This document shows, in pieces, positions 12,979 to 44,225 of a stretch of 44,999 nt of DNA. The stretch covers positions 1 through 44,999 of IMG/VR virus record IMGVR_UViG_3300034072_000663. One strand, written 5' to 3'. Every line of letters begins with the position of its first letter. The stretch's first letter is position 1. The notes below the pieces were generated by a model that saw only the letters and a program-made list of their open reading frames with translations, did not search any database and was not told the DNA's origin. This DNA comes from a virus. The translations under genes and the position numbers were made by a program.

Positions 12979-13923
12979 TCAGGCAGCCAGAGGCAGCTCT
13001 TCGTCGTCTGAGGAGGCCTCAGAGGCGTCTACAGGGCCTAAGAGAGACACGCAGGCAGCATCAGCCAGCCTTGCAGCCTTGAGGATGGCGTTCTTGTCTT
13101 CTCCAAGCTTCTTGAGCCATCCGCCGACGTAGGCAGCGTGGTTGTCGATGTGTTCCCCTTCGACACCAAGGCGAGCGTTGAGCATCGCTGAGCCAAGCTC
13201 CGCCACCAGCTCCTCGAAGGCATACTGAGGGCTGCCAAAGTGATCGAACTTGACGATCCCGTCGCGGGCTTGGCGATCCTTGTGGCCGGTCCAGTGGACT
13301 AGCTCGTGACCAAGGGTCGCAAGGTAAGAGCCAGGAGTCTTGAAGGACTCGAAGGCAGGCACCTGGACGAAATCCTGCTGAGGCGAATAGAAGGCCTTGT
13401 CGCCACCAAAGCGCACATCGGCACCACAGGCCAGAAGAGCCATCTCAGCCTCGTGGTTGCGCAGGGCAGGGTCCAGAGGGACGTGCTCAGGATTGACGAA
13501 GCGCGGAGGTATCTGATTACCTTCTTCTGCCGGCTCTAGCTGGTCGAGGTTCCAGACGTGGCTAGCAGTCATGAAGAAACGCTTTTCGGTCTCGCCGGTC
13601 TCTGCGTTCTCCTTTTCGCTTACCTTGAAGAAGATCACTACAGTGCCCTTCTCGCCCTTGCGCACCTTGAAGCCCAGGTCCTTTGCACCATGGAAACCGA
13701 ACCAATAGGGCGACTGGTAACCGTGGACAGCCGCAGCCATGCCCAAGAGAAACTGATTGATACCACGGTAGGCCTTGCGCTGAGAGTTGCGCTGCAGGCC
13801 GCTGGTGGCCCACCCCTTGACCCAGGGGCGAGTGCCTGCCTCAAGGGCCTCAACGATCTTGGCGGTGACTTCTGCAGCGTAATCGCGACGCTCGAAGGTC
13901 TTCTTGGCGGTCTTCTTGGTCAT
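12979..13923 (-). CDS. ArdC-like antirestriction protein
   Basis: 314 residues with the two-part plan of ArdC. The N-terminal ssDNA-binding domain (about 10-130) has RPWVKGW, YRGINQFLL, KVRKGEKGTVVIFF and HVWNLDQL. The C-terminal zincin-type metallopeptidase domain has HELVH at 206-210, in a GHELVHWTGH context, with a FEELVAELGSA helix downstream. ArdC-type proteins protect incoming DNA from host restriction. A CAGGAG site precedes the ATG. Being in the leftward block with host-type promoters fits expression at once on entry. Confidence 0.85.
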   Translation of the reverse strand: MTKKTAKKTFERRDYAAEVTAKIVEALEAGTRPWVKGWATSGLQRNSQRKAYRGINQFLLGMAAAVHGYQSPYWFGFHGAKDLGFKVRKGEKGTVVIFFKVSEKENAETGETEKRFFMTASHVWNLDQLEPAEEGNQIPPRFVNPEHVPLDPALRNHEAEMALLACGADVRFGGDKAFYSPQQDFVQVPAFESFKTPGSYLATLGHELVHWTGHKDRQARDGIVKFDHFGSPQYAFEELVAELGSAMLNARLGVEGEHIDNHAAYVGGWLKKLGEDKNAILKAARLADAACVSLLGPVDASEASSDDEELPLAA

Positions 13924-28301: not shown

Positions 28302-30452
28302 ATGAAGCAAAGACGCCCTGAGGCAATCAAAGACGAAGATCTGCTCAATGCCTGTAGGCGCAGAGTGGAGAGAGGAACTGCCTTCGTCGATACCGGACTG
28401 GCGCAGGAACGCCGCGAAGTCCAGGAATACTGGCTGGGCAATCTGCCTCTCCCGCTCACAGCCGGTGGCTCTAAGTTCCGCTCGCAGGACGTTTACGTAG
28501 CCGTAGAGAGCATGAAGGCCCAGATCGTCGAGAGCTTCTCGGCAGGGTCAAATATCGTCCAGTTCAGCCCTCAGACGGCTATGGACGTGGTGCTCGCCAA
28601 GCAGGCTACGGCCATGTGCGAGTTCGCCATCCACAGACAGAACGACGCCCTGAGCCTCTTCATGGACGTTGCGCACGACGGTCTGACCAATCGTATCGGT
28701 ATCGCAGAGGTCGAGTGGGAACGCTCAGAAACTGCAGTCGAATACGAGTATGGCCCTGCGACCATGGAGGAGCTGACAGAAACCCTCTCGCAGCCTGACG
28801 TTCGACCTATTGGCAAGACTAAGGTCTCCAAGGCCGCTGACGGCGTTACCACTCTGTATTCCGGCAGATTCGAGCGGATCACCGATACCTCTCAGGTCAA
28901 GATGACTGCAGTTCCCCCAGAGGAACTCATCGTCTTTGGACGCTGCTCGTCTCTGGACGACGCCAAGCTTGTCTCACGGCGTATGCGTATGACCATGGGC
29001 GAACTGGCGGCTCAGTTCCCTGAGAAGCAAGACGAGATCTTCAACGCTACAGGCCTTGAGACCGATACGATCTACGACGAGGAAACTCTAGCCCGTGAAG
29101 CCATGTCCAACGCCTCTATAGGTGTAGCCAGTGGCGGCGTAGGGGCTGGGGTGTCCAGGGTCAACAACAAGATCCCTCTGGCAATCAGTGGAAGCACTTG
29201 GCTAGACGATGACGACGCTGAGGATGCCGCTGGGCAGATGCTCACAGTCTACAAGACCTATATTCGCATAGACGCTGAAGGCCGTGGCCGGCAGGACCTC
29301 TACCGTGTGATCCACTGCGGCGAAGTGATGATCGACAAGGTCAAGGTGGACGACCACCCCTGGGTAATCTTCAAGCCTGCTCCGATGCCTCACGTGTTCT
29401 GGGGAGACAACTTCGCAGCCCGCGTGATCCAGACGGCCAACGTCAAGACCACTCTGACCCGTGCGATCATCGAACAGGCAGTCGATGCGACTAACCCTCG
29501 CTACATGGTTGCCCGTGGTGGCCTAGCGCAGGCCAGAGAGCTTCTGGACAATCGCAGAGGCGGTATCGTCAACGTCCGATCTCTTGCAGACAGCGTTGCG
29601 CCTCTCCCTCAGACCCCGATCAATCCGTTCGTCCTGCAGACCATTGGTCTTGTAGATAGCGACCGGCAGGATATCACTGGTATCTCCAGACTGTCCCAGG
29701 GTCTCGACAAGAATGCCCTCAGCCACCGTAACAGCGGCGGTCTTGTGGAACAGCTTACAGACAACAGCATGGTCCGCACAAAGATCATAGCGCGTCTATT
29801 CGCTGCCCAGTTCCTGAAGAACCTGTATCTCAAAGTATACGCCCTGATCATCAAGCATGAGAAGACCGAACGTATCATCGAGGTCGCAGGTAACTATGTC
29901 CCTGTGACACCTTCGGACTGGAAGTCACGCAAGGACTGCATTGTCGATATGTCTCTCGGATATAACGAGAGAGAAGCCAAGGTCAAGGACATGGCCGAGT
30001 TCGTCGCAATGATGGACGCCAATCCTGCGAACCAGAGGCTCTTCGACGAGAAGAAGCGTTACAACGTGTATAAGACGATGCTTGAAACCAAGGGCTACAA
30101 GAACGTCCAGGACTTCCTCAACGATCCAGAGCAGCTTCAGCCGCCTGAGCCAGATCCAATGGCAATGCTGGCCCTCGAAGAGCAGAAGAAGAAAGTTGAG
30201 ATCATGGAGCGCGAACAGGCAATCCGTGAGCAGCAGATCATCCACAACCTGCAGATGGCTGAGCAAGAGTTCGAACTCAAGGCCCAGGATACTGCCTTCA
30301 AGGCCCAGATGTCTATCCGCGAAGCCGACCGTAAGGACGCAGATGCTGCAAGTGTCATCGACACCAGACAGGCTGAGACCATGGTCCTCGTGGAAAACGC
30401 TGCGAACCCTCAGGGCAAGCTCCAGCAGAATACGATCATTAGCCCAAGCTAA
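28302..30452 (+). CDS. Portal protein (P22-like)
   Basis: 716 residues, close to P22 gp1 (725). The N-terminal and central region (EVQEYWLGNLPLP, YVAVESMKAQIVESF, then the strand-rich wing) and the C-terminal, Gln- and Glu-rich coiled coil (about 620-690) match the P22/phi29-like portal plan with a barrel tail. Forms the dodecameric vertex for packaging and tail attachment. T7-like portals are shorter and differ, so the virion module is not T7-derived. Confidence 0.85.
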   Translation: MKQRRPEAIKDEDLLNACRRRVERGTAFVDTGLAQERREVQEYWLGNLPLPLTAGGSKFRSQDVYVAVESMKAQIVESFSAGSNIVQFSPQTAMDVVLAKQATAMCEFAIHRQNDALSLFMDVAHDGLTNRIGIAEVEWERSETAVEYEYGPATMEELTETLSQPDVRPIGKTKVSKAADGVTTLYSGRFERITDTSQVKMTAVPPEELIVFGRCSSLDDAKLVSRRMRMTMGELAAQFPEKQDEIFNATGLETDTIYDEETLAREAMSNASIGVASGGVGAGVSRVNNKIPLAISGSTWLDDDDAEDAAGQMLTVYKTYIRIDAEGRGRQDLYRVIHCGEVMIDKVKVDDHPWVIFKPAPMPHVFWGDNFAARVIQTANVKTTLTRAIIEQAVDATNPRYMVARGGLAQARELLDNRRGGIVNVRSLADSVAPLPQTPINPFVLQTIGLVDSDRQDITGISRLSQGLDKNALSHRNSGGLVEQLTDNSMVRTKIIARLFAAQFLKNLYLKVYALIIKHEKTERIIEVAGNYVPVTPSDWKSRKDCIVDMSLGYNEREAKVKDMAEFVAMMDANPANQRLFDEKKRYNVYKTMLETKGYKNVQDFLNDPEQLQPPEPDPMAMLALEEQKKKVEIMEREQAIREQQIIHNLQMAEQEFELKAQDTAFKAQMSIREADRKDADAASVIDTRQAETMVLVENAANPQGKLQQNTIISPS

Positions 30453-30463
30453 TAGGAACACGT

Positions 30464-30799
30464 ATGGAAGACTACGTCCTAACGGACGAAGAGCAACTTA
30501 TAGTAGACCAGGGGGCGGACGCCCGCTCCCTGCTACTGTCAGATATCTTTATCCGCACTATCGGTAAACTCAAGGCCGACTGTGCTCAGTCAATTCTCGA
30601 AAGTTCTCCGGAGCAATCCCAGGAAAGAGAACGGACTTACTACATGGCCAGAGCCTTAGAAGCTGTGGTCAATGAACTTGAGACAATCTCAAACGCTGGC
30701 GACGCTATAATGACGAAGCTGGCATTCCTAACAGAAACACCCACAGACACCGAGTCCCAGGCACTCTACGCCCCGGATTCCACTGACTCGTGGTATTGA
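30464..30799 (+). CDS. Hypothetical protein between portal and scaffold (111 aa)
   Basis: Acidic, helical throughout, with a disordered C-terminus (SQALYAPDSTDSWY). The place between portal and scaffold suggests a head assembly role, but nothing in the sequence proves it. Confidence 0.6.
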   Translation: MEDYVLTDEEQLIVDQGADARSLLLSDIFIRTIGKLKADCAQSILESSPEQSQERERTYYMARALEAVVNELETISNAGDAIMTKLAFLTETPTDTESQALYAPDSTDSWY

Positions 30800-30812
30800 A
30801 AGATGACAACCT

Positions 30813-31844
30813 GTGTCAACCCCAAATAATACTGACATCGCCGCTACTGACAACGGAATCAACGAAGAGCAGGCTGTAGCCATGCTTCTGGCCCGCGACA
30901 GTAAGCCTTCCAAGAGCAAGCCAGCAGATGACTCTGCGCCCAGTGATGAAACAGACAGTTCGCCCTCAGAAGACGGTGAAGACGATCTGGACGATCTCGG
31001 CGAAGACGAAGAGGATCTTGAGGATAACTCTGAGGACGAAGATGTCGATCAGGACGACGAGGACGCCGATGAAGGCGAAGACGACGATTCTGACGAAGAC
31101 GAACCAAAAGACAAAAAGACTGATCTGAGCGACGATGCGACCGTGGAAATTACCGTCCATGGGAAGACCGAAACGCTCACCATCGCGCAGCTTAAGCGTA
31201 TCGCTGCGGACCGAACGGCCATCCAGGCGAAGTCTGAGGAAGCCGATAAGGTAGGCCGAACGGCTGCTGCAGCTATCGACGCTGTGGCCTCTCAGCTCCA
31301 GGAAGACCTCGTGCCTTACCTGAAGGCCGACTGGGACCAGATGAAGTTCGACGTGCTCAATGGTCGTATGTCCGAAGAGGAATACAACTGGCACAAGCAG
31401 AACTTCACGAAGCTCCAGGCCCGCTGGGACAAGCTGAAGAATGCCGAAAGCGGCTACGTGTCCGTAATGGACGAAGCGACCAAGGCCAGACGTGCTCAGG
31501 AAGCCCAGGAAGCTGTGGCAGAACTGAAGCGCGATATCCCAGAGTGGGACGACAAGCTCTACACGGATGTGGTCAACTGGTCGGCAACCCAGGGTCTCAA
31601 CCCTGAGGAAGTCCTGCAGATCACCAACGCTAAGGTCATGAAGATCCTCGTGAAGGCCTTCAGAGCAGACACAAAGAAGACTGCTGCCGTCAAGAAGATC
31701 GAGAATGACCCTCGTCCACTGAAGCCAAGTGCTTCGGGAGACAGTCCGGTGAATGCCAATATCCGCAAGCTCGAGAAGAAGATCAAGTCTGGCGCAGGCA
31801 CTGAGGAAGACGCTATCGCGCTTCTGAAGGGTCGTTGGGGCTAA
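30813..31844 (+). CDS. Scaffolding protein (probable)
   Basis: GTG start. Residues 28-105 are an extreme acidic low-complexity region of Asp and Glu, followed by charged helices and a basic C-terminal helix with KLEKKIKSG. Position directly before the major capsid gene and this composition are typical of podovirus scaffolds, which shape the prohead and leave it. Confidence 0.75.
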   Translation: MSTPNNTDIAATDNGINEEQAVAMLLARDSKPSKSKPADDSAPSDETDSSPSEDGEDDLDDLGEDEEDLEDNSEDEDVDQDDEDADEGEDDDSDEDEPKDKKTDLSDDATVEITVHGKTETLTIAQLKRIAADRTAIQAKSEEADKVGRTAAAAIDAVASQLQEDLVPYLKADWDQMKFDVLNGRMSEEEYNWHKQNFTKLQARWDKLKNAESGYVSVMDEATKARRAQEAQEAVAELKRDIPEWDDKLYTDVVNWSATQGLNPEEVLQITNAKVMKILVKAFRADTKKTAAVKKIENDPRPLKPSASGDSPVNANIRKLEKKIKSGAGTEEDAIALLKGRWG

Positions 31845-31856
31845 TAGCTCCTAAAC

Positions 31857-31884
31857 GTTAAGCACATGGTGTGCTCAGCGTAAC
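31857..31884 (+). other. Hairpin in the capsid gene leader
   Basis: GTTA/TAAC outer arms and GCACA/TGTGC inner arms with a TGG loop, 30 bases before the capsid start. No T run. Probably an mRNA stabilising or processing hairpin for the most highly made protein. Confidence 0.5.
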
Positions 31885-31915
31885 AACAATTCAATCCACA
31901 TAAAGAGTAAATACT

Positions 31916-32845
31916 ATGAGTAAGCCTTTTTCAACCTACGAACAGGTAGGCAAGAAGGAAGACGTCTCGGACGTTATTTCGACCCTGAACCGTCAGGACA
32001 CCCCGTTCTCGGATTCGCTGGGCACCCGTCAGATCCACAACGTGATCTACGATTGGCAGGAAGACGAACAGCTCCCAGGTGGCGATAACGCCAAGGTCGA
32101 AGGCTTCGAGGCTGTCGATGAGGCTCTGACGACCACGTCGAAGCTGATGAACACCACGCAGATCTTCTCGCGCACCTTCAAGACCTCGGGCACCCTGGGC
32201 GCAATCGACATGTATGGCCGCAAGGATGAGCTGGCTCGCCAGATCGTCAAGAAGGGCCTGCAGCTCAAGCAGGACTACGAATACGCTTGTATCGCTCGCG
32301 ACGGCGGTATGGTCCTGGGTAACGACACGGACACTCCGCGTCGGTTCGCTTCGGCGCATGGTCTGGTAGCTGCGGGCAACCGTATCTCCAACGCGACCAC
32401 TGGTGCTAACCCCGCTCCTCGTGCCCTGCAGGAAGCTACGCTCCGTGCGGCTATCCGTAAGAGCTACGATGAGGGTGCTAACGCTACCTGCTTCCTCGTG
32501 GCTCCTCTGGTTGCCGAACAGGCTGCTGAGTTCAACGGTAACGCTGAGCGCACTCGTGAAACCACGGCTGCCAAGGCTACCACGATCAACCACGTGGTTG
32601 ACGTGTATATCACCGCTCTGGGCACCCTGACCATCGAGACCGCGCGTCTGATGAAGGCTGACCTTGGTCTGCTCTTCAAGAAGGGCACTTACCGCAAGGC
32701 AGTCATGAAGAACCGTAGCTGGTTCAAGGAGACCCTGGCGAAGACCGGTGACTCGACGCGCACCATGCTGGCCGGCGAATACGGTCTGCAGATCGACAAC
32801 TCGAAGGGCGCAGTGATCGTCACGGGCATCGACCCGAACGCCTAA
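31916..32845 (+). CDS. Major capsid protein (DUF5309 / SU10-type)
   Basis: 309 residues with the hallmarks of the DUF5309 HK97-fold family: DVSDVISTLNRQDTPFSDSLG near the start, YDWQEDEQLP, a long helix-rich core with GRKDELARQIVKKGLQLKQDYEYA, and a C-terminal segment ending in YGLQIDNSKGAVIVTGID. Codon choice is markedly GC-rich at third positions, as expected for a highly expressed gene. Flanked by a leader hairpin and a terminator. Confidence 0.85.
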   Translation: MSKPFSTYEQVGKKEDVSDVISTLNRQDTPFSDSLGTRQIHNVIYDWQEDEQLPGGDNAKVEGFEAVDEALTTTSKLMNTTQIFSRTFKTSGTLGAIDMYGRKDELARQIVKKGLQLKQDYEYACIARDGGMVLGNDTDTPRRFASAHGLVAAGNRISNATTGANPAPRALQEATLRAAIRKSYDEGANATCFLVAPLVAEQAAEFNGNAERTRETTAAKATTINHVVDVYITALGTLTIETARLMKADLGLLFKKGTYRKAVMKNRSWFKETLAKTGDSTRTMLAGEYGLQIDNSKGAVIVTGIDPNA

Positions 32846-37710: not shown

Positions 37711-37739
37711 TTGACCCTCAGCCAGAAGGTTGCCATTAT
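37711..37739 (+). promoter_or_regulatory. Host-type promoter of the regulator-integrase unit
   Basis: TTGACC (37711-37716), 17-base spacer, CATTAT (37734-37739). GTCCT at 37746-37750 and AGGAC at 37757-37761 form an inverted repeat just downstream, possibly an operator, but with inverted orientation and different spacing from the AGGACA-type boxes elsewhere. Confidence 0.65.
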
Positions 37740-37791
37740 GGGATGGTCCTGAACCTAGGACAAACCATAGCAACAACACAAGGCTAAACCA

Positions 37792-38133
37792 ATGGACGAC
37801 GAACTGAAGGCCCTCAGGAAACTGGACCGTGTGATCGACCAGATAAGATCCTCAGTGGCCAGTGCTCTGCCTCTCCAGGTTGCCCAGACGTTTCTGGCAG
37901 TAGCCATGAAGGAAGGCCAGTCGGTCTCTGAGATCTCTGAGGAACTGAAGTCCAACCTCTCGACTGTCTCACGGCATCTCCTGGATCTGGGAGCAAGGAA
38001 CAAGGAGCAGCAAGGGATAAACTACGGTCTCGTCGAGTCCAGAGGCGACCCTTTGGATATGAGAAGAAAGGAGTTCTACCTGACACCTAAGGGAAAAATC
38101 CTACGCAAGAATATTCTCGGAATCATGGAGTGA
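37792..38133 (+). CDS. Winged-helix regulator before integrase (113 aa)
   Basis: Residues 25-75 (VAQTFLAVAMKEGQSVSEISEELKSNLSTVSRHLLDLGA) form a MarR/ArsR-like winged helix, and the wing is followed by a basic stretch (LTPKGKILRKN). Ends 3 bases before the integrase start. It may control integrase or act in excision; no further evidence. Confidence 0.7.
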   Translation: MDDELKALRKLDRVIDQIRSSVASALPLQVAQTFLAVAMKEGQSVSEISEELKSNLSTVSRHLLDLGARNKEQQGINYGLVESRGDPLDMRRKEFYLTPKGKILRKNILGIME

Positions 38134-38136
38134 CTA

Positions 38137-39231
38137 ATGGCAATCTATCCGGACAAGAAGAACGGAAAGCTTACAGGACGCTGGAGGGTAGAACTCCAGT
38201 CCAAGGGACGCAGATACCGTGAGCGTCACAACGATCTTGCAGCCGCCAAGAAGGACGAAGAGAGAGTCAAGGCTGCCTGGGCAAAGGGACTGGAGGTCGA
38301 GAAGACTTCTGTCCGAGTTGAGGTCAAGGATCCCTGCAAGAGCCTTGAGCGTCTCGCCAAGAATGCCAATGGTATCCTGTGGCGCGATCAGGCCTCAGAG
38401 CTGAACACCTGGAAGCGTATCGAAAGGATCCTCAGAATCCTCCCAGGAGCCACCGTGGACAGCCTTACGACCCCTGACCTGGACAGACTAGCGGATGTCC
38501 TCCAGAAAGGCTCTGACGGCGGTCCTAAGGCCTCTGACAGCACTATCAACAGATACCTGTCGCATCTCCACAAGCTGATGGACCATGGAGCATCCAGAGG
38601 ATACCGCAGGGAGAACCCTGAGCCTCTGGTCTTCCCTTGGCGCGAAGAGAGCGAAGGGCGTATCCGCTGGTTGACCTACGAGGAAGAGGCGAAGCTCCAG
38701 GAACTCCTGCCGGCTAACTGTTGGACACTGGTAGAAGCCTCAATCGACGGAGGGTTCAGACGAGGAGAGCTTCTGTCCTTGGAGCCAGGGCAATTCTCAG
38801 GGAACCGTGTGCACCTGTGGGAAACCAAGACGGACAGCCCACGCACAGTCCACATGGATTACGTCAAGTCCACCAATCTCTACGATCTGGTCTGCAGGAA
38901 GCAGATGCCTTCAGAGAGTGAGCTTCGGTATCAATGGGACAAGGCCAAGGCTGCTATGGGACTGGAGAACGATGAGAACTTCGTGTTCCACGCTTGCAGA
39001 CACACTTGCTGCACTCGTCTGGTGGAATCTGGGGTCAATCTCAGGGTGATCCAGAAGTTCATGGGACACAAGCGGATAGAAACAACCATCAGATACGCCC
39101 ATGTTCGGGACGAAATGCTCGAAGAGGCTTCAAGGGCCAAATCGCAGCACGCGGATAATATCCACCTGAGGACGGGAATTCCCCCACTGGCCGGTGGGGA
39201 AGAGGGGAACATAAGCTTGCAATGTGCATAA
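38137..39231 (+). CDS. Tyrosine-family integrase
   Basis: 364 residues. N-terminal arm-binding region, SAM-like core-binding domain (about 100-170), then the catalytic domain with R208 in GGFRRGELL, H285-A-C-R288, H311 in MGHKR and the nucleophile Y320 in TIRYAHV. All catalytic residues are present. The attP core, a partial tRNA-Leu, lies 40 bases after its stop. An integrase next to the phage RNA polymerase recalls cyanophage P-SSP7. Confidence 0.94.
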   Translation: MAIYPDKKNGKLTGRWRVELQSKGRRYRERHNDLAAAKKDEERVKAAWAKGLEVEKTSVRVEVKDPCKSLERLAKNANGILWRDQASELNTWKRIERILRILPGATVDSLTTPDLDRLADVLQKGSDGGPKASDSTINRYLSHLHKLMDHGASRGYRRENPEPLVFPWREESEGRIRWLTYEEEAKLQELLPANCWTLVEASIDGGFRRGELLSLEPGQFSGNRVHLWETKTDSPRTVHMDYVKSTNLYDLVCRKQMPSESELRYQWDKAKAAMGLENDENFVFHACRHTCCTRLVESGVNLRVIQKFMGHKRIETTIRYAHVRDEMLEEASRAKSQHADNIHLRTGIPPLAGGEEGNISLQCA

Positions 39232-39250: not shown

Positions 39251-39333
39251 GGTTTCTAAGGGATGCTAAGCGCGGGCGTGGCGAAACTGGTAGACGCGCC
39301 AGATTTAGGTTCCACTGGAAACCCTTAGAAACC
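39251..39333. repeat. 12-bp perfect inverted repeat flanking attP core
   Basis: GGTTTCTAAGGG at 39251-39262 and its exact inverse CCCTTAGAAACC at 39322-39333 enclose the tRNA-like core. Likely recognition sites for integrase or a partner. Confidence 0.8.
39272..39312 (+). other. attP: attP core: 5' half of a tRNA-Leu gene
   Basis: The sequence begins GCGGGCGTGGCGAAACTGGT and continues through the D arm into an anticodon loop with TAG, matching bacterial tRNA-Leu(UAG) from its first base to just after the anticodon. The 3' half of a tRNA (variable arm, T arm, acceptor) is missing, so it is not a working gene. Together with the adjacent integrase this marks attP; the host site should be a tRNA-Leu gene. 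Confidence 0.85.
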
Positions 39334-39356
39334 CTAGATCTAATAGTCACTTACAG

Positions 39357-39403
39357 AGCCGTAGAGGGGTATCCGGACGATATCTCCCTACGGCTTTTCT
39401 TTT
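39357..39403 (+). terminator. Terminator between attP and the RNA polymerase gene
   Basis: AGCCGTAG (39357-39364) pairs with CTACGGCT (39388-39395), with inner TATC/GATA pairing, followed by a T-rich run. In the integrated state it would stop host tRNA-Leu promoter transcription from entering the phage polymerase gene. Confidence 0.85.
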
Positions 39404-39432: not shown

Positions 39433-39475
39433 AGGGCATTTTGTCCTTGCGCCTGAGGGCACCTTGGCATATACT
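39433..39475 (+). promoter_or_regulatory. Host-type promoter of the RNA polymerase gene with two-box operator
   Basis: TTGCGC (39447-39452), 17-base spacer, TATACT (39470-39475). Box 1 AGGGCATTTTGTCCT (39433-39447) overlaps the -35, and box 2 AGGGCACCTTGGCAT (39456-39470) fills the spacer. Centres are 23 bp apart, as at the early and repressor promoters. Repression here would stop all phage-polymerase transcription. Confidence 0.8.
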
Positions 39476-39503
39476 CCCAGACCTAGGACATTCCCAGGGA
39501 TGT

Positions 39504-39525
39504 TCTAAAAGGGTTACCACTGCAC
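39504..39525 (+). promoter_or_regulatory. Phage RNA polymerase promoter, copy 3 (own gene)
   Basis: Exact copy of the 22-bp element, 27 bases before the polymerase start. It would give positive autoregulation once the first polymerase is made from the host promoter. Confidence 0.8.
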
Positions 39526-39551: not shown

Positions 39552-42170
39552 ATGAATTATCTTGAAGATGATAAACTAAGAGATACCCAGAGAGACTATG
39601 AGTCCCTTAGTCTTACCTTAGGATACGATAGGTATCTAAGAGACCAAGAGAACAAAGAGAAGACCAATGGTGTAGAATCGTCCGATAATCACCAAAGGCT
39701 CTTCAGTCTTTTGGTTGACAAAGTGGCTGAGGAACTTGAGTCCTGGATCGATCAGGCCTCTAAGTCCGCAGGGAAGACTCATGGTGGCTTATCGTCACTG
39801 AAACTTCTGGACAAACATCTCTTGGCCTACATCGGTCTGGCTTCGGTCTCTCAGGCTGTCCTAAGGAACGCTTCGATCACCAAGGCATATCTCAAAGCCG
39901 GCAGGACCGTTGAGATCGAACTGGAAGCCATGGCTCTCCAGAGCACCGATAAGAACCTCGCAAAGAAATTCCAGGCGTTAGTCAAGGGTTCGTCTTCGGT
40001 GAAGGCCATGGAGAAGACCCATGGTAAGTTCCTTAAGAAGATCGACAAGGAGACCGGGGAGGTCCATTACGACCTTGAGTTGGCCTGGGACAATGCCAAG
40101 AGAATGAACGTCGGGGATCCTATTATCCAAGCGACACTAAAGGGTGCCGAAGATATCTTCGAGAGAGCCTATAGACCGATCAAAGGCGAACAGGAATCTT
40201 ATGTCCGCTTCACGGCTTATGGTGCTCGTCTTATGTATGACTTGAGGGAGAACGCTGCGTGGATGCGTCCGGCATACCTCCCGATGCTAGTGATGCCTAG
40301 CGATTGGGAGAACCTTTGGACAGGCGCATACTCCACCAAGAAGGTCTCCAAGACCGTTCAGTTCGTCCGTGGGATGCACAAGGAGAGCAAAGAGCTTCTC
40401 AAGGCAGCAATCGACTCGGGGAAGATGAAGCAAGCGATGGACGCTGTGAACATCCTCCAGAGGACCAAGTTCGCTATCGACACGGATATCCTGGAGATGA
40501 TCGAATGGTGCATCCAGTCGAACCTCAGGCCGTCCAAGAGCTTCCCTATGGCTGTCTCTCCAGAACCTTTCGCCAAGGTATGGCCTTCGGTCTGGGAAGC
40601 GTGGCCGGACGAACGCAAGAGAGCTTACACTCGCAAGGCGGCTGAGCGTTACGAGATCATCGACACTGCAGCCCGTGAGCGTGTGGTCCTGAACAACGAT
40701 ATGAACACTGCAAGCTTCCTCGCAGGGTTCGAAGAGTTCTACCTGCCTTACAACATGGACTGGAGGACCCGCATGTATCCTGTCTGTCACTTCAACCACC
40801 AGAGGCCGGACCACGTGAAGGCTCTGTTCCGGTTTGCCGACAGGAAGCCTGTAGGAGAGCATGGAGGGAACTGGCTGGCTATCCATCTGGCCAACTCAGG
40901 GGACTTCGAGAAAGTCTCCAAGAAGCCCTTCACTGATCGCTGGTCCTGGGTCGATAGCAATCTGGACATGATCCTAGCGATTGCCGACGATCCAAAGGGA
41001 AACTACGAGAAGTGGTCTGAGGCAGACTCTCCGTTCGTGTTCCTCCAGGCTTGCATCGAGTATGCAGCTTATGTCCGCTCAGGGTATAGCCCAGAGTTCC
41101 TCTCTTCGATCTCCGTGGCTATCGACGGTTCATGCTCAGGCCTTCAGCACTTCTCGGCAATGACCAGATGCAGCGAAGAGGCTTACCACGTGAACCTGTT
41201 GCCCAGAGAGGACGTAGGGGACATCTACAACGTGGTTGCCTTCAGATCCTCGCAGACCCTCAAGGAAGAGGCTGAGAGCGGCTCCAAGAACTACCTGATA
41301 GCATCTATCGTCCTTGAGCAGGGCTGGGGGCGCTCAGAGAACAAGCGGCCTACGATGACGTTCTACTACGGCTCCAAGGCCTCAGGGATGCGCGATCAGT
41401 ATATGCAGGACACCATGCGTCCTATCAACGACAAGGTGTCTCTTGGAGAGCTGCAGTGCAATCCCTACGAGATCGTCAATGTGGAGACTGGTAGGCCCGA
41501 TGGTGGCTATGCGGCCTCAGGGGTTATGGCCGAACACGCCTACAAGGCCGTTAAGACTGTAGCTCCCAAGGCTGCTGGTGCGATGGAGTTCTTCCAGAGC
41601 GTTGCGTCAATACTCGCACATGAGGGACATTCCATGGTCTGGGTAACGCCTACCGGCGTCCCTGTTTGCCAGCGGTATAGCGAATGGAACATGAAGAGGG
41701 TCAAGATGTGGCTCTACGACAGGAACGTCAGGATCGAAAAGGCTCCAGGAGAGGCTAAGGTTGACGAACAGGGCCGAGTGTCCACACGCGTAGCCTTGAC
41801 CATCAGGGAGAACGAGACGACCCGAATTGACAAGCGCAAGGCACGGTCTGCAGCGTCTCCTAACGTCGTCCACAGTATGGACGGAAGCCACATGCAGCTT
41901 GCTACGGTCAAGGCATACGAAGAGGGAATAGACGCCTTCATGCCTAACCACGACAGCTTCGGGTGTCACGCAGGGTCCATGCAGAGGTTCTTCTTCATCG
42001 TCCGCGAGACCTTCGCTGAGATGTATACGAGCTACTGTCCGTTCGAAGCGGTCCTGAGCCACGCTAAGTCCGTCCTGTCCGAAAAGAGCATCAAGAAGCT
42101 GCCAGAGGTTCCTCCTAAGGGCGACCTGGACCTGTCTCTGGTAATCTCCTCGCTCTATGCGTTCGCCTAA
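39552..42170 (+). CDS. Single-subunit DNA-dependent RNA polymerase (T7 type)
   Basis: 872 residues (T7 gp1 is 883). Motif A: D525 in AIDGSCSGLQHFSA; motif B: K598 to Y606 in KRPTMTFYYGSK; motif C: D801 in HDSFG. These correspond to T7 D537, K631, Y639 and D812. I place the start at the ATG at 39552, after the phage promoter, although the frame is open from 39441. It should transcribe from the four repeats. Regulation by a repressor-controlled host promoter plus its own promoter is inferred. Confidence 0.96.
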   Translation: MNYLEDDKLRDTQRDYESLSLTLGYDRYLRDQENKEKTNGVESSDNHQRLFSLLVDKVAEELESWIDQASKSAGKTHGGLSSLKLLDKHLLAYIGLASVSQAVLRNASITKAYLKAGRTVEIELEAMALQSTDKNLAKKFQALVKGSSSVKAMEKTHGKFLKKIDKETGEVHYDLELAWDNAKRMNVGDPIIQATLKGAEDIFERAYRPIKGEQESYVRFTAYGARLMYDLRENAAWMRPAYLPMLVMPSDWENLWTGAYSTKKVSKTVQFVRGMHKESKELLKAAIDSGKMKQAMDAVNILQRTKFAIDTDILEMIEWCIQSNLRPSKSFPMAVSPEPFAKVWPSVWEAWPDERKRAYTRKAAERYEIIDTAARERVVLNNDMNTASFLAGFEEFYLPYNMDWRTRMYPVCHFNHQRPDHVKALFRFADRKPVGEHGGNWLAIHLANSGDFEKVSKKPFTDRWSWVDSNLDMILAIADDPKGNYEKWSEADSPFVFLQACIEYAAYVRSGYSPEFLSSISVAIDGSCSGLQHFSAMTRCSEEAYHVNLLPREDVGDIYNVVAFRSSQTLKEEAESGSKNYLIASIVLEQGWGRSENKRPTMTFYYGSKASGMRDQYMQDTMRPINDKVSLGELQCNPYEIVNVETGRPDGGYAASGVMAEHAYKAVKTVAPKAAGAMEFFQSVASILAHEGHSMVWVTPTGVPVCQRYSEWNMKRVKMWLYDRNVRIEKAPGEAKVDEQGRVSTRVALTIRENETTRIDKRKARSAASPNVVHSMDGSHMQLATVKAYEEGIDAFMPNHDSFGCHAGSMQRFFFIVRETFAEMYTSYCPFEAVLSHAKSVLSEKSIKKLPEVPPKGDLDLSLVISSLYAFA

Positions 42171-44147: not shown

Positions 44148-44225
44148 CGTGTAGTAGCTCAGTCTGGTCAGAGCGTGCCGTTTGGAGCGGTGAGGCCGCA
44201 GGTTCGAATCCTGCCTACGCGACCA
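44148..44225 (+). tRNA. tRNA-Pro (UGG)
   Basis: Complete cloverleaf: acceptor CGTGTAG with CTACGCG, D stem GCTC/GAGC, anticodon stem TGCCG/CGGTG with loop TTTGGAG (anticodon TGG at 44183-44185), T stem GCAGG/CCTGC with TTCGAAT, discriminator A and an encoded CCA. C1-G72 and A73 fit bacterial tRNA-Pro. Proline CCT codons are frequent in the phage genes, so it may aid late translation. Confidence 0.93.

Follow-up and report, generated by a model that had tools for sequence, protein, structure and literature searches.

The stretch of DNA analysed here (the window, also labelled W) is a virus record of 44,999 bases, and the site between its integrase and RNA polymerase genes very probably serves as attP for a temperate podovirus of Sphingomonadales that has a T7-type RNA polymerase and recombines with the tRNA-Leu(UAG) gene. 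Phages with a T7-type polymerase were long held to be strictly lytic. New in this work are complete prophages of such phages, the occurrence of carriers of the 5' half and of the 3' half of a tRNA gene in one integrase clade, and a genome, G025, in which the two kinds stand in tandem.

The core of the site is 100% identical over 41 nt to nucleotides 1-41 of tRNA-Leu(UAG), which an earlier reading of the letters (the sequence-only reading) had recognised as the first half of that tRNA. It begins at the first base of the mature tRNA, stops just past the anticodon loop and lies 40 bp downstream of the end of int. A search with the exact 41-mer in a bacterial genome collection holding one genome per species matched 73 contigs, mainly from Sphingobium, Blastomonas, Sphingosinicella and Sphingomonas (mostly Sphingomonadales), and in 73 of 73 the match sat inside a complete tRNA-Leu(TAG) gene. 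An exact match of 41 nt placed at a tRNA boundary is far beyond chance. The core is intact and internal in the window, which suggests that the window is the free-phage form. The features discussed below are collected in Table 1.

Table 1. Features around the attachment core in the window, and prophages of related phages.
Feature	Position	Strand	Evidence or remark
Candidate sigma-70 promoter TTGACC-17-CATTAT, 5' of the HTH-int operon	37711..37739	+	read directly; weak consensus match
Small winged-helix/HTH regulator, corresponding to the MarR-like gene found in T7-like temperate phages	37792..38133	+	phrog_9665 transcriptional regulator, E 7.6e-19
Tyrosine integrase (int)	38137..39231	+	Pfam Phage_integrase, E 1.4e-19; phrog_1 integrase, E 1e-44
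Inverted repeat, left arm GGTTTCTAAGGG	39251..39262	+	perfect 12 bp, symmetric around the core
Predicted attP core, nt 1-41 of tRNA-Leu(UAG)	39272..39312	+	exact in 73 contigs; homologous cores are the prophage junctions in G011, G025, G252 and G004
Inverted repeat, right arm CCCTTAGAAACC	39322..39333	+	perfect 12 bp
Predicted intrinsic terminator	39357..39403	+	hairpin 39357-39395 and T-run to 39403; -22.7 kcal/mol
Candidate promoter of the polymerase gene, sigma-70 type, TTGCGC-17-TATACT	39447..39475	+	about 1% of window background scores as high
T7-like single-subunit RNA polymerase	39552..42170	+	Pfam RNA_pol, E 5.5e-80; phrog_414, E 3.3e-188
G011 prophage	C1:825467-868116		predicted junctions
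G025 5'-half prophage	C1:762301-721276	minus	predicted junctions
G252 prophage	attL C3:2919748, attR C3:38723		2919748-end plus 1-38723, across contig ends
G004 prophage	virus record 46986-1231		predicted junctions

The regulator gene in front of int is matched by Pfam HTH models only below their cut-off; homologues of it stand upstream of int in G004, G011, G025, G252 and G619. The sequence-only reading had placed a promoter at 37711. A sigma-70-like motif is indeed present there, but its match to the consensus is weak, its score with a host-trained matrix was only moderate, and its activity is putative; a better sigma-70-like site lies between the terminator and the polymerase gene. The host-trained matrix was dropped because it was over-fitted to the Sphingobium tRNA-Leu promoter, and a generic sigma-70 matrix was used in its place. 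Elsewhere in the window, an ArdC-type anti-restriction protein is encoded on the opposite strand at 12979-13923 (phrog_7245, E 2.4e-75).

The 12-bp inverted repeat that had been said to frame the core was found: it is perfect and centred on the core, with each arm 9 nt away from it, and was matched in 0/300 shuffles. It was rejected as a conserved arm site of the integrase, being present only in W and G252 and with different sequences. CTAAGGG repeats near attP were also discarded as specific arm sites, as the 7-mer occurs 17 times in the window, mostly elsewhere. We also noticed that ACCTAGGACA is common to 37745-37770 and 39480-39510, 3' of the candidate promoters of the HTH and polymerase genes, and that an imperfect palindrome, TAGGACATTCCCAGGGATGTTCTA, accompanies its copies; a regulator operator is possible. 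As an operator shared by the upstream regions of the two genes, ACCTAGGACA was not retained (shuffle value in W, 0.028; weak or absent in the relatives).

Relatives of the integrase were sought in IMG/VR and among genomes sampled from the family, order and class to which Sphingobium belongs. They were found at 10 viral loci (L076 being on the same contig as L002) and in 7 bacterial genomes; the class sample of 385 genomes gave no integrase relatives. Four of them, G011, G025, G252 and G004, are whole prophages or prophage-bearing records with predicted ends, 41.0-45.8 kb long and with repeat blocks, and these integrated relatives have integrases 42-50% identical to that of the window. In all four, attL consists of the host flank with its promoter and the 5' half, followed by the polymerase gene, and attR of the HTH and int genes followed by a complete tRNA-Leu(TAG), which is the lysogen geometry that had been predicted. 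The reading frame beyond the rebuilt tRNA at attR we take to be the start of the host tig gene; in G025, tig lies beyond a second prophage and not directly after the rebuilt tRNA. In G004, the cores at attL and attR are distinguished by nt 16 and nt 40, which places the strand exchange between these positions, around the anticodon loop, and the crossover falls inside the tRNA fragment as expected. The free-phage contigs L078 and L080 show the order int, 5' half, terminator, i.e. the unintegrated form; L081 and L082 were not among the junctions read, as these records are cut at the int stop. The search for prophages split at the site thus succeeded for the four relatives but not for the window phage itself, of which no prophage was found in the 73 exact-core contigs (no split copy), in 94 Sphingobium genomes or in the family, order and class samples (398, 398 and 385 genomes). 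A DNA-level search of phage records for the window returned nothing useful.

We infer that the window phage behaves in the same way. Its integrase would recombine attP with the tRNA-Leu(UAG) gene at the anticodon loop, and because attP has the 5' half on the integrase side, the host promoter and the native 5' half would end up beside the phage polymerase gene, with the terminator between them. A complete tRNA-Leu(UAG) would be rebuilt from the phage 5' half and the host 3' half about 35-40 bp 3' of int. It would be without its native promoter and would depend on phage DNA for its transcription: transcripts of the HTH-int operon could read through into it, there being no terminator between int and the core, or a small promoter in the gap could serve it.

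The need for transcription from the phage side, which the sequence-only reading had foreseen for a rebuilt tRNA downstream of the integrase, is borne out by the attR sites of the relatives. BLAST searches with the whole tRNA detected a single complete tRNA-Leu(UAG) in each of G011, G025 and G252, namely the rebuilt one; the other tRNA-Leu genes checked in these genomes have the anticodons CAA, CAG, GAG and TAA, and no second tRNA-Leu(UAG) was found in the three lysogens. In G025, a covariance search with ARAGORN run on the hits again gave a single TAG tRNA-Leu gene, in a list of 40 matches that lacks some expected tRNAs and is possibly incomplete. The native tRNA promoter (TTGCCC or TTGCGC, a spacer of 16-17 and TATA, 15-25 nt before nt 1) stays at the prophage end far from the rebuilt tRNA. 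For both reasons, phage-side transcription is topologically required.

It is also conceivable that the tRNA fragment does not work as an attachment site but was left behind by an imprecise excision or captured from host DNA, and such an origin was proposed for the tRNA-Leu gene beside int in LUZ100 (PMC10134795). We regard this as highly improbable, since homologous fragments form the exact ends of integrated relatives, and the fragment runs from exactly tRNA nt 1 to the anticodon loop, which is what would be expected of a crossover site with a restored gene. With the fragment taken as a working attP, the source of the tRNA transcript has to be considered. The gap between int and the tRNA is 33-40 nt in W, L078, L080, G004, G025 and G619, and in G011 the integrase reading frame extends into the tRNA. 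Read-through of the HTH-int operon is the source we would put forward, if with some reserve. It is quite possible, though not what we would expect, that the rebuilt tRNA is served instead by a small promoter of its own in the gap. The Prochlorococcus phages P-SSP7, P-SSP2 and P-SSP3 have TATAAT 19-20 nt before tRNA nt 1 (background 0.2-1.4%), so that a putative local promoter is convincing in these three. TTGCCC-17-TATTCC in G252 and TCGACA-17-TATGTG in G011 lie as far from the tRNA as the host promoter of the respective genome does, and these candidate -10 boxes at the host's spacing are suggestive of a local promoter there. However, most Synechococcus phages show no such promoter before the tRNA half, the best gap site in W, L078, L080 and G004 is no better than 8-29% of random positions, and in the gap of the window a local promoter is weak, about 15% of random positions scoring as well.

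The terminator was confirmed as a hairpin with a T-run and is the strongest terminator-like site in the window, where only 4/498 180-nt windows reach -18. In the free phage it would end the HTH-int transcript, and in the lysogen it would stop transcripts that start at the strong host tRNA promoter before they reach the phage early genes. It may, however, merely end the HTH-int transcript, with no special shielding of the polymerase gene of the lysogen, which we hold possible but rather doubtful. Of 10 cyanophages that carry the 5' half, 9 have the terminator, 63-82 nt downstream of tRNA nt 1. Among them are S-TIP28 and SS120-1, in which the polymerase gene precedes the cassette; the terminator therefore belongs to the cassette, is not tied to the polymerase gene, and has the ending of the HTH-int transcript as at least one of its roles. 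In LUZ100, a terminator after int halts most MarR-int transcripts (PMC10134795). Strong hairpins follow the core in L078, L080, G025 and G004 as well, and in attL of G004 and G025 the terminator separates the host tRNA promoter from the polymerase gene, but in G011 and G252 no hairpin after the core passes the same terminator test. Both roles can hold, and a double role, with the block to the host promoter as its presumed second part, is the simplest reading.

The same arrangement allows a further and, in our opinion, unlikely model. The rebuilt tRNA-Leu(UAG), as the sole one of the cell, would be the last cistron of the regulator-integrase operon of the prophage, and integration would sever the polymerase gene from this operon. 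If this were true, lysogeny would be transcriptionally tied to the supply of a needed tRNA in an addiction-like manner, and integration itself would switch the lytic programme off.

We also looked at the relationships of the integrases. The sphingomonad integrases form one clade (support 99/98), which includes the 5'-half carriers at tRNA-Leu; the cyanophage integrases form a separate, distantly related branch, with long branches and an unsupported deep order. The expectation that the family integrates at the 5' half of tRNA-Leu held for the four prophages, whereas some integrase relatives use tRNA-Arg, tRNA-Cys or the 3' half of tRNA-Leu. One of these is a 5'-half element of only 2.7 kb in G619 (C13:46665-49399; L127, 40001-56000), in which only HTH and int were recognised and which is bounded by 42-bp copies of the tRNA-Arg(UCU) 5' half. 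Islands at the 3' half of tRNA-Cys with related integrases were seen in G348 (C11:620194-626566, 6 kb) and G497 (C22:604400-616453, 12 kb) and are possible satellites; G511 is of the same tRNA-Cys type, with one end only seen.

G025 carries, besides its 5'-half prophage, a 3'-half prophage at the same tRNA-Leu(UAG) gene and with an integrase of the same clade. The two, which belong to the same broad group, stand in tandem (L100-L105, C1:660001-780000). The only complete tRNA-Leu(UAG) found in this genome (C1:721276-721192, minus strand) lies between them, its upstream flank being prophage 1 and its downstream flank prophage 2, and the host's own 5' and 3' tRNA halves lie outside the tandem, at 762301 and 670949. 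Provided that the second exchange, too, happened close to the anticodon loop, this tRNA would consist wholly of prophage-derived bases; the halves are identical and preclude proof by sequence. The clade with both halves, together with the G025 tandem, indicates that one crossover point is compatible with a 5' half as well as with a 3' half, and it informs the evolution of attachment sites and the upkeep of a needed tRNA after loss of its promoter. With the complete sphingomonad prophages, the 5'-half arrangement becomes accessible to testing.

Most phages and islands that integrate into tRNA genes resemble the window in having a tyrosine integrase, a crossover at the anticodon loop and a restored tRNA, but the half that they restore is the 3' one, and the native promoter is retained. 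The general statement to this effect in the sequence-only reading agrees with Islander, in which 3760 of the listed islands carry a 3' fragment and 159 a 5' fragment (159/3919; PMC4383910). The archaeal pTN3-like integrative elements share with the window the 5' half of tRNA-Leu as attB, and their recombinant tRNA is expressed from the integrase promoter (reviewed in PMC8371274); unlike in the window, where int ends before the core, their integration splits the integrase gene. Lysogeny dependent on a phage tRNA (Fionnbharth type) was considered and rejected, as the core is 41 bp and not short, homologous cores in the relatives rebuild the tRNA, and the only phage tRNA found is a tRNA-Pro(UGG) at 44148-44225. 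In L085 (6895-6979), a complete tRNA-Leu(CAA) comes after an integrase gene, and some 100 nt further on there is a second 3' half of a similar tRNA; this layout resembles tRNA-dependent lysogeny or an integrated junction.

LUZ100 and the pelagiphages HTVC119P and HTVC200P have the same order of MarR, int, core and polymerase genes, with a core on the tRNA-Leu anticodon loop, and LUZ100 also has a terminator between int and the polymerase gene. In contrast to the window, their core is only a short anticodon-loop segment of about 11-13 bp (read by eye), and in LUZ100 the place of a 5' half is taken by a complete tRNA-Leu gene upstream of int; according to the LUZ100 paper, T7-like pelagiphages have the same complete tRNA-Leu upstream of int (PMC10134795). 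By eye, the int-polymerase gap of L149 (HTVC021P) contains an apparent tRNA-Cys 5' half on the strand opposite int. As in Autographiviridae, the window encodes a single-subunit phage RNA polymerase, but its portal and major capsid proteins match SU10/phiEco32-type families and not the T7 type, so the phage is not a plain member of that family. The genes of this portal and capsid lie at 28302-32845, and the polymerase, endonuclease I and DNA polymerase are T7-like, which makes the phage a mosaic of two groups of podoviruses.

The closest parallels are the cyanophages P-SSP7 and S-TIP37, which have a MarR-like gene, a tyrosine integrase, an exact tRNA-Leu 5' half and a terminator in the same order as the window, with the polymerase gene following the cassette. 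The parallel drawn with P-SSP7, whose int lies beside a tRNA-Leu match, is borne out by its sequence and by the literature (PMC8776855). According to the same paper, the att motif of each of the four cyanophages matches the first half of tRNA-Leu, and integration requires both int and attP. The window differs in host phylum, in its tRNA-Leu(UAG) target, in a distantly related integrase and in its head genes, and its relatives are complete prophages, whereas stable lysogens of the cyanophages were not obtained. It shares with the T7-like phages of this type an int gene with attP directly 3' of it, an exact first-half match within their range of 39-42 bp and a MarR-like regulator gene directly 5' of int, and integration at tRNA-Leu is seen in the four relatives. 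The window site is thus a further case of the 5'-half tRNA-Leu cassette already known from T7-like cyanophages.
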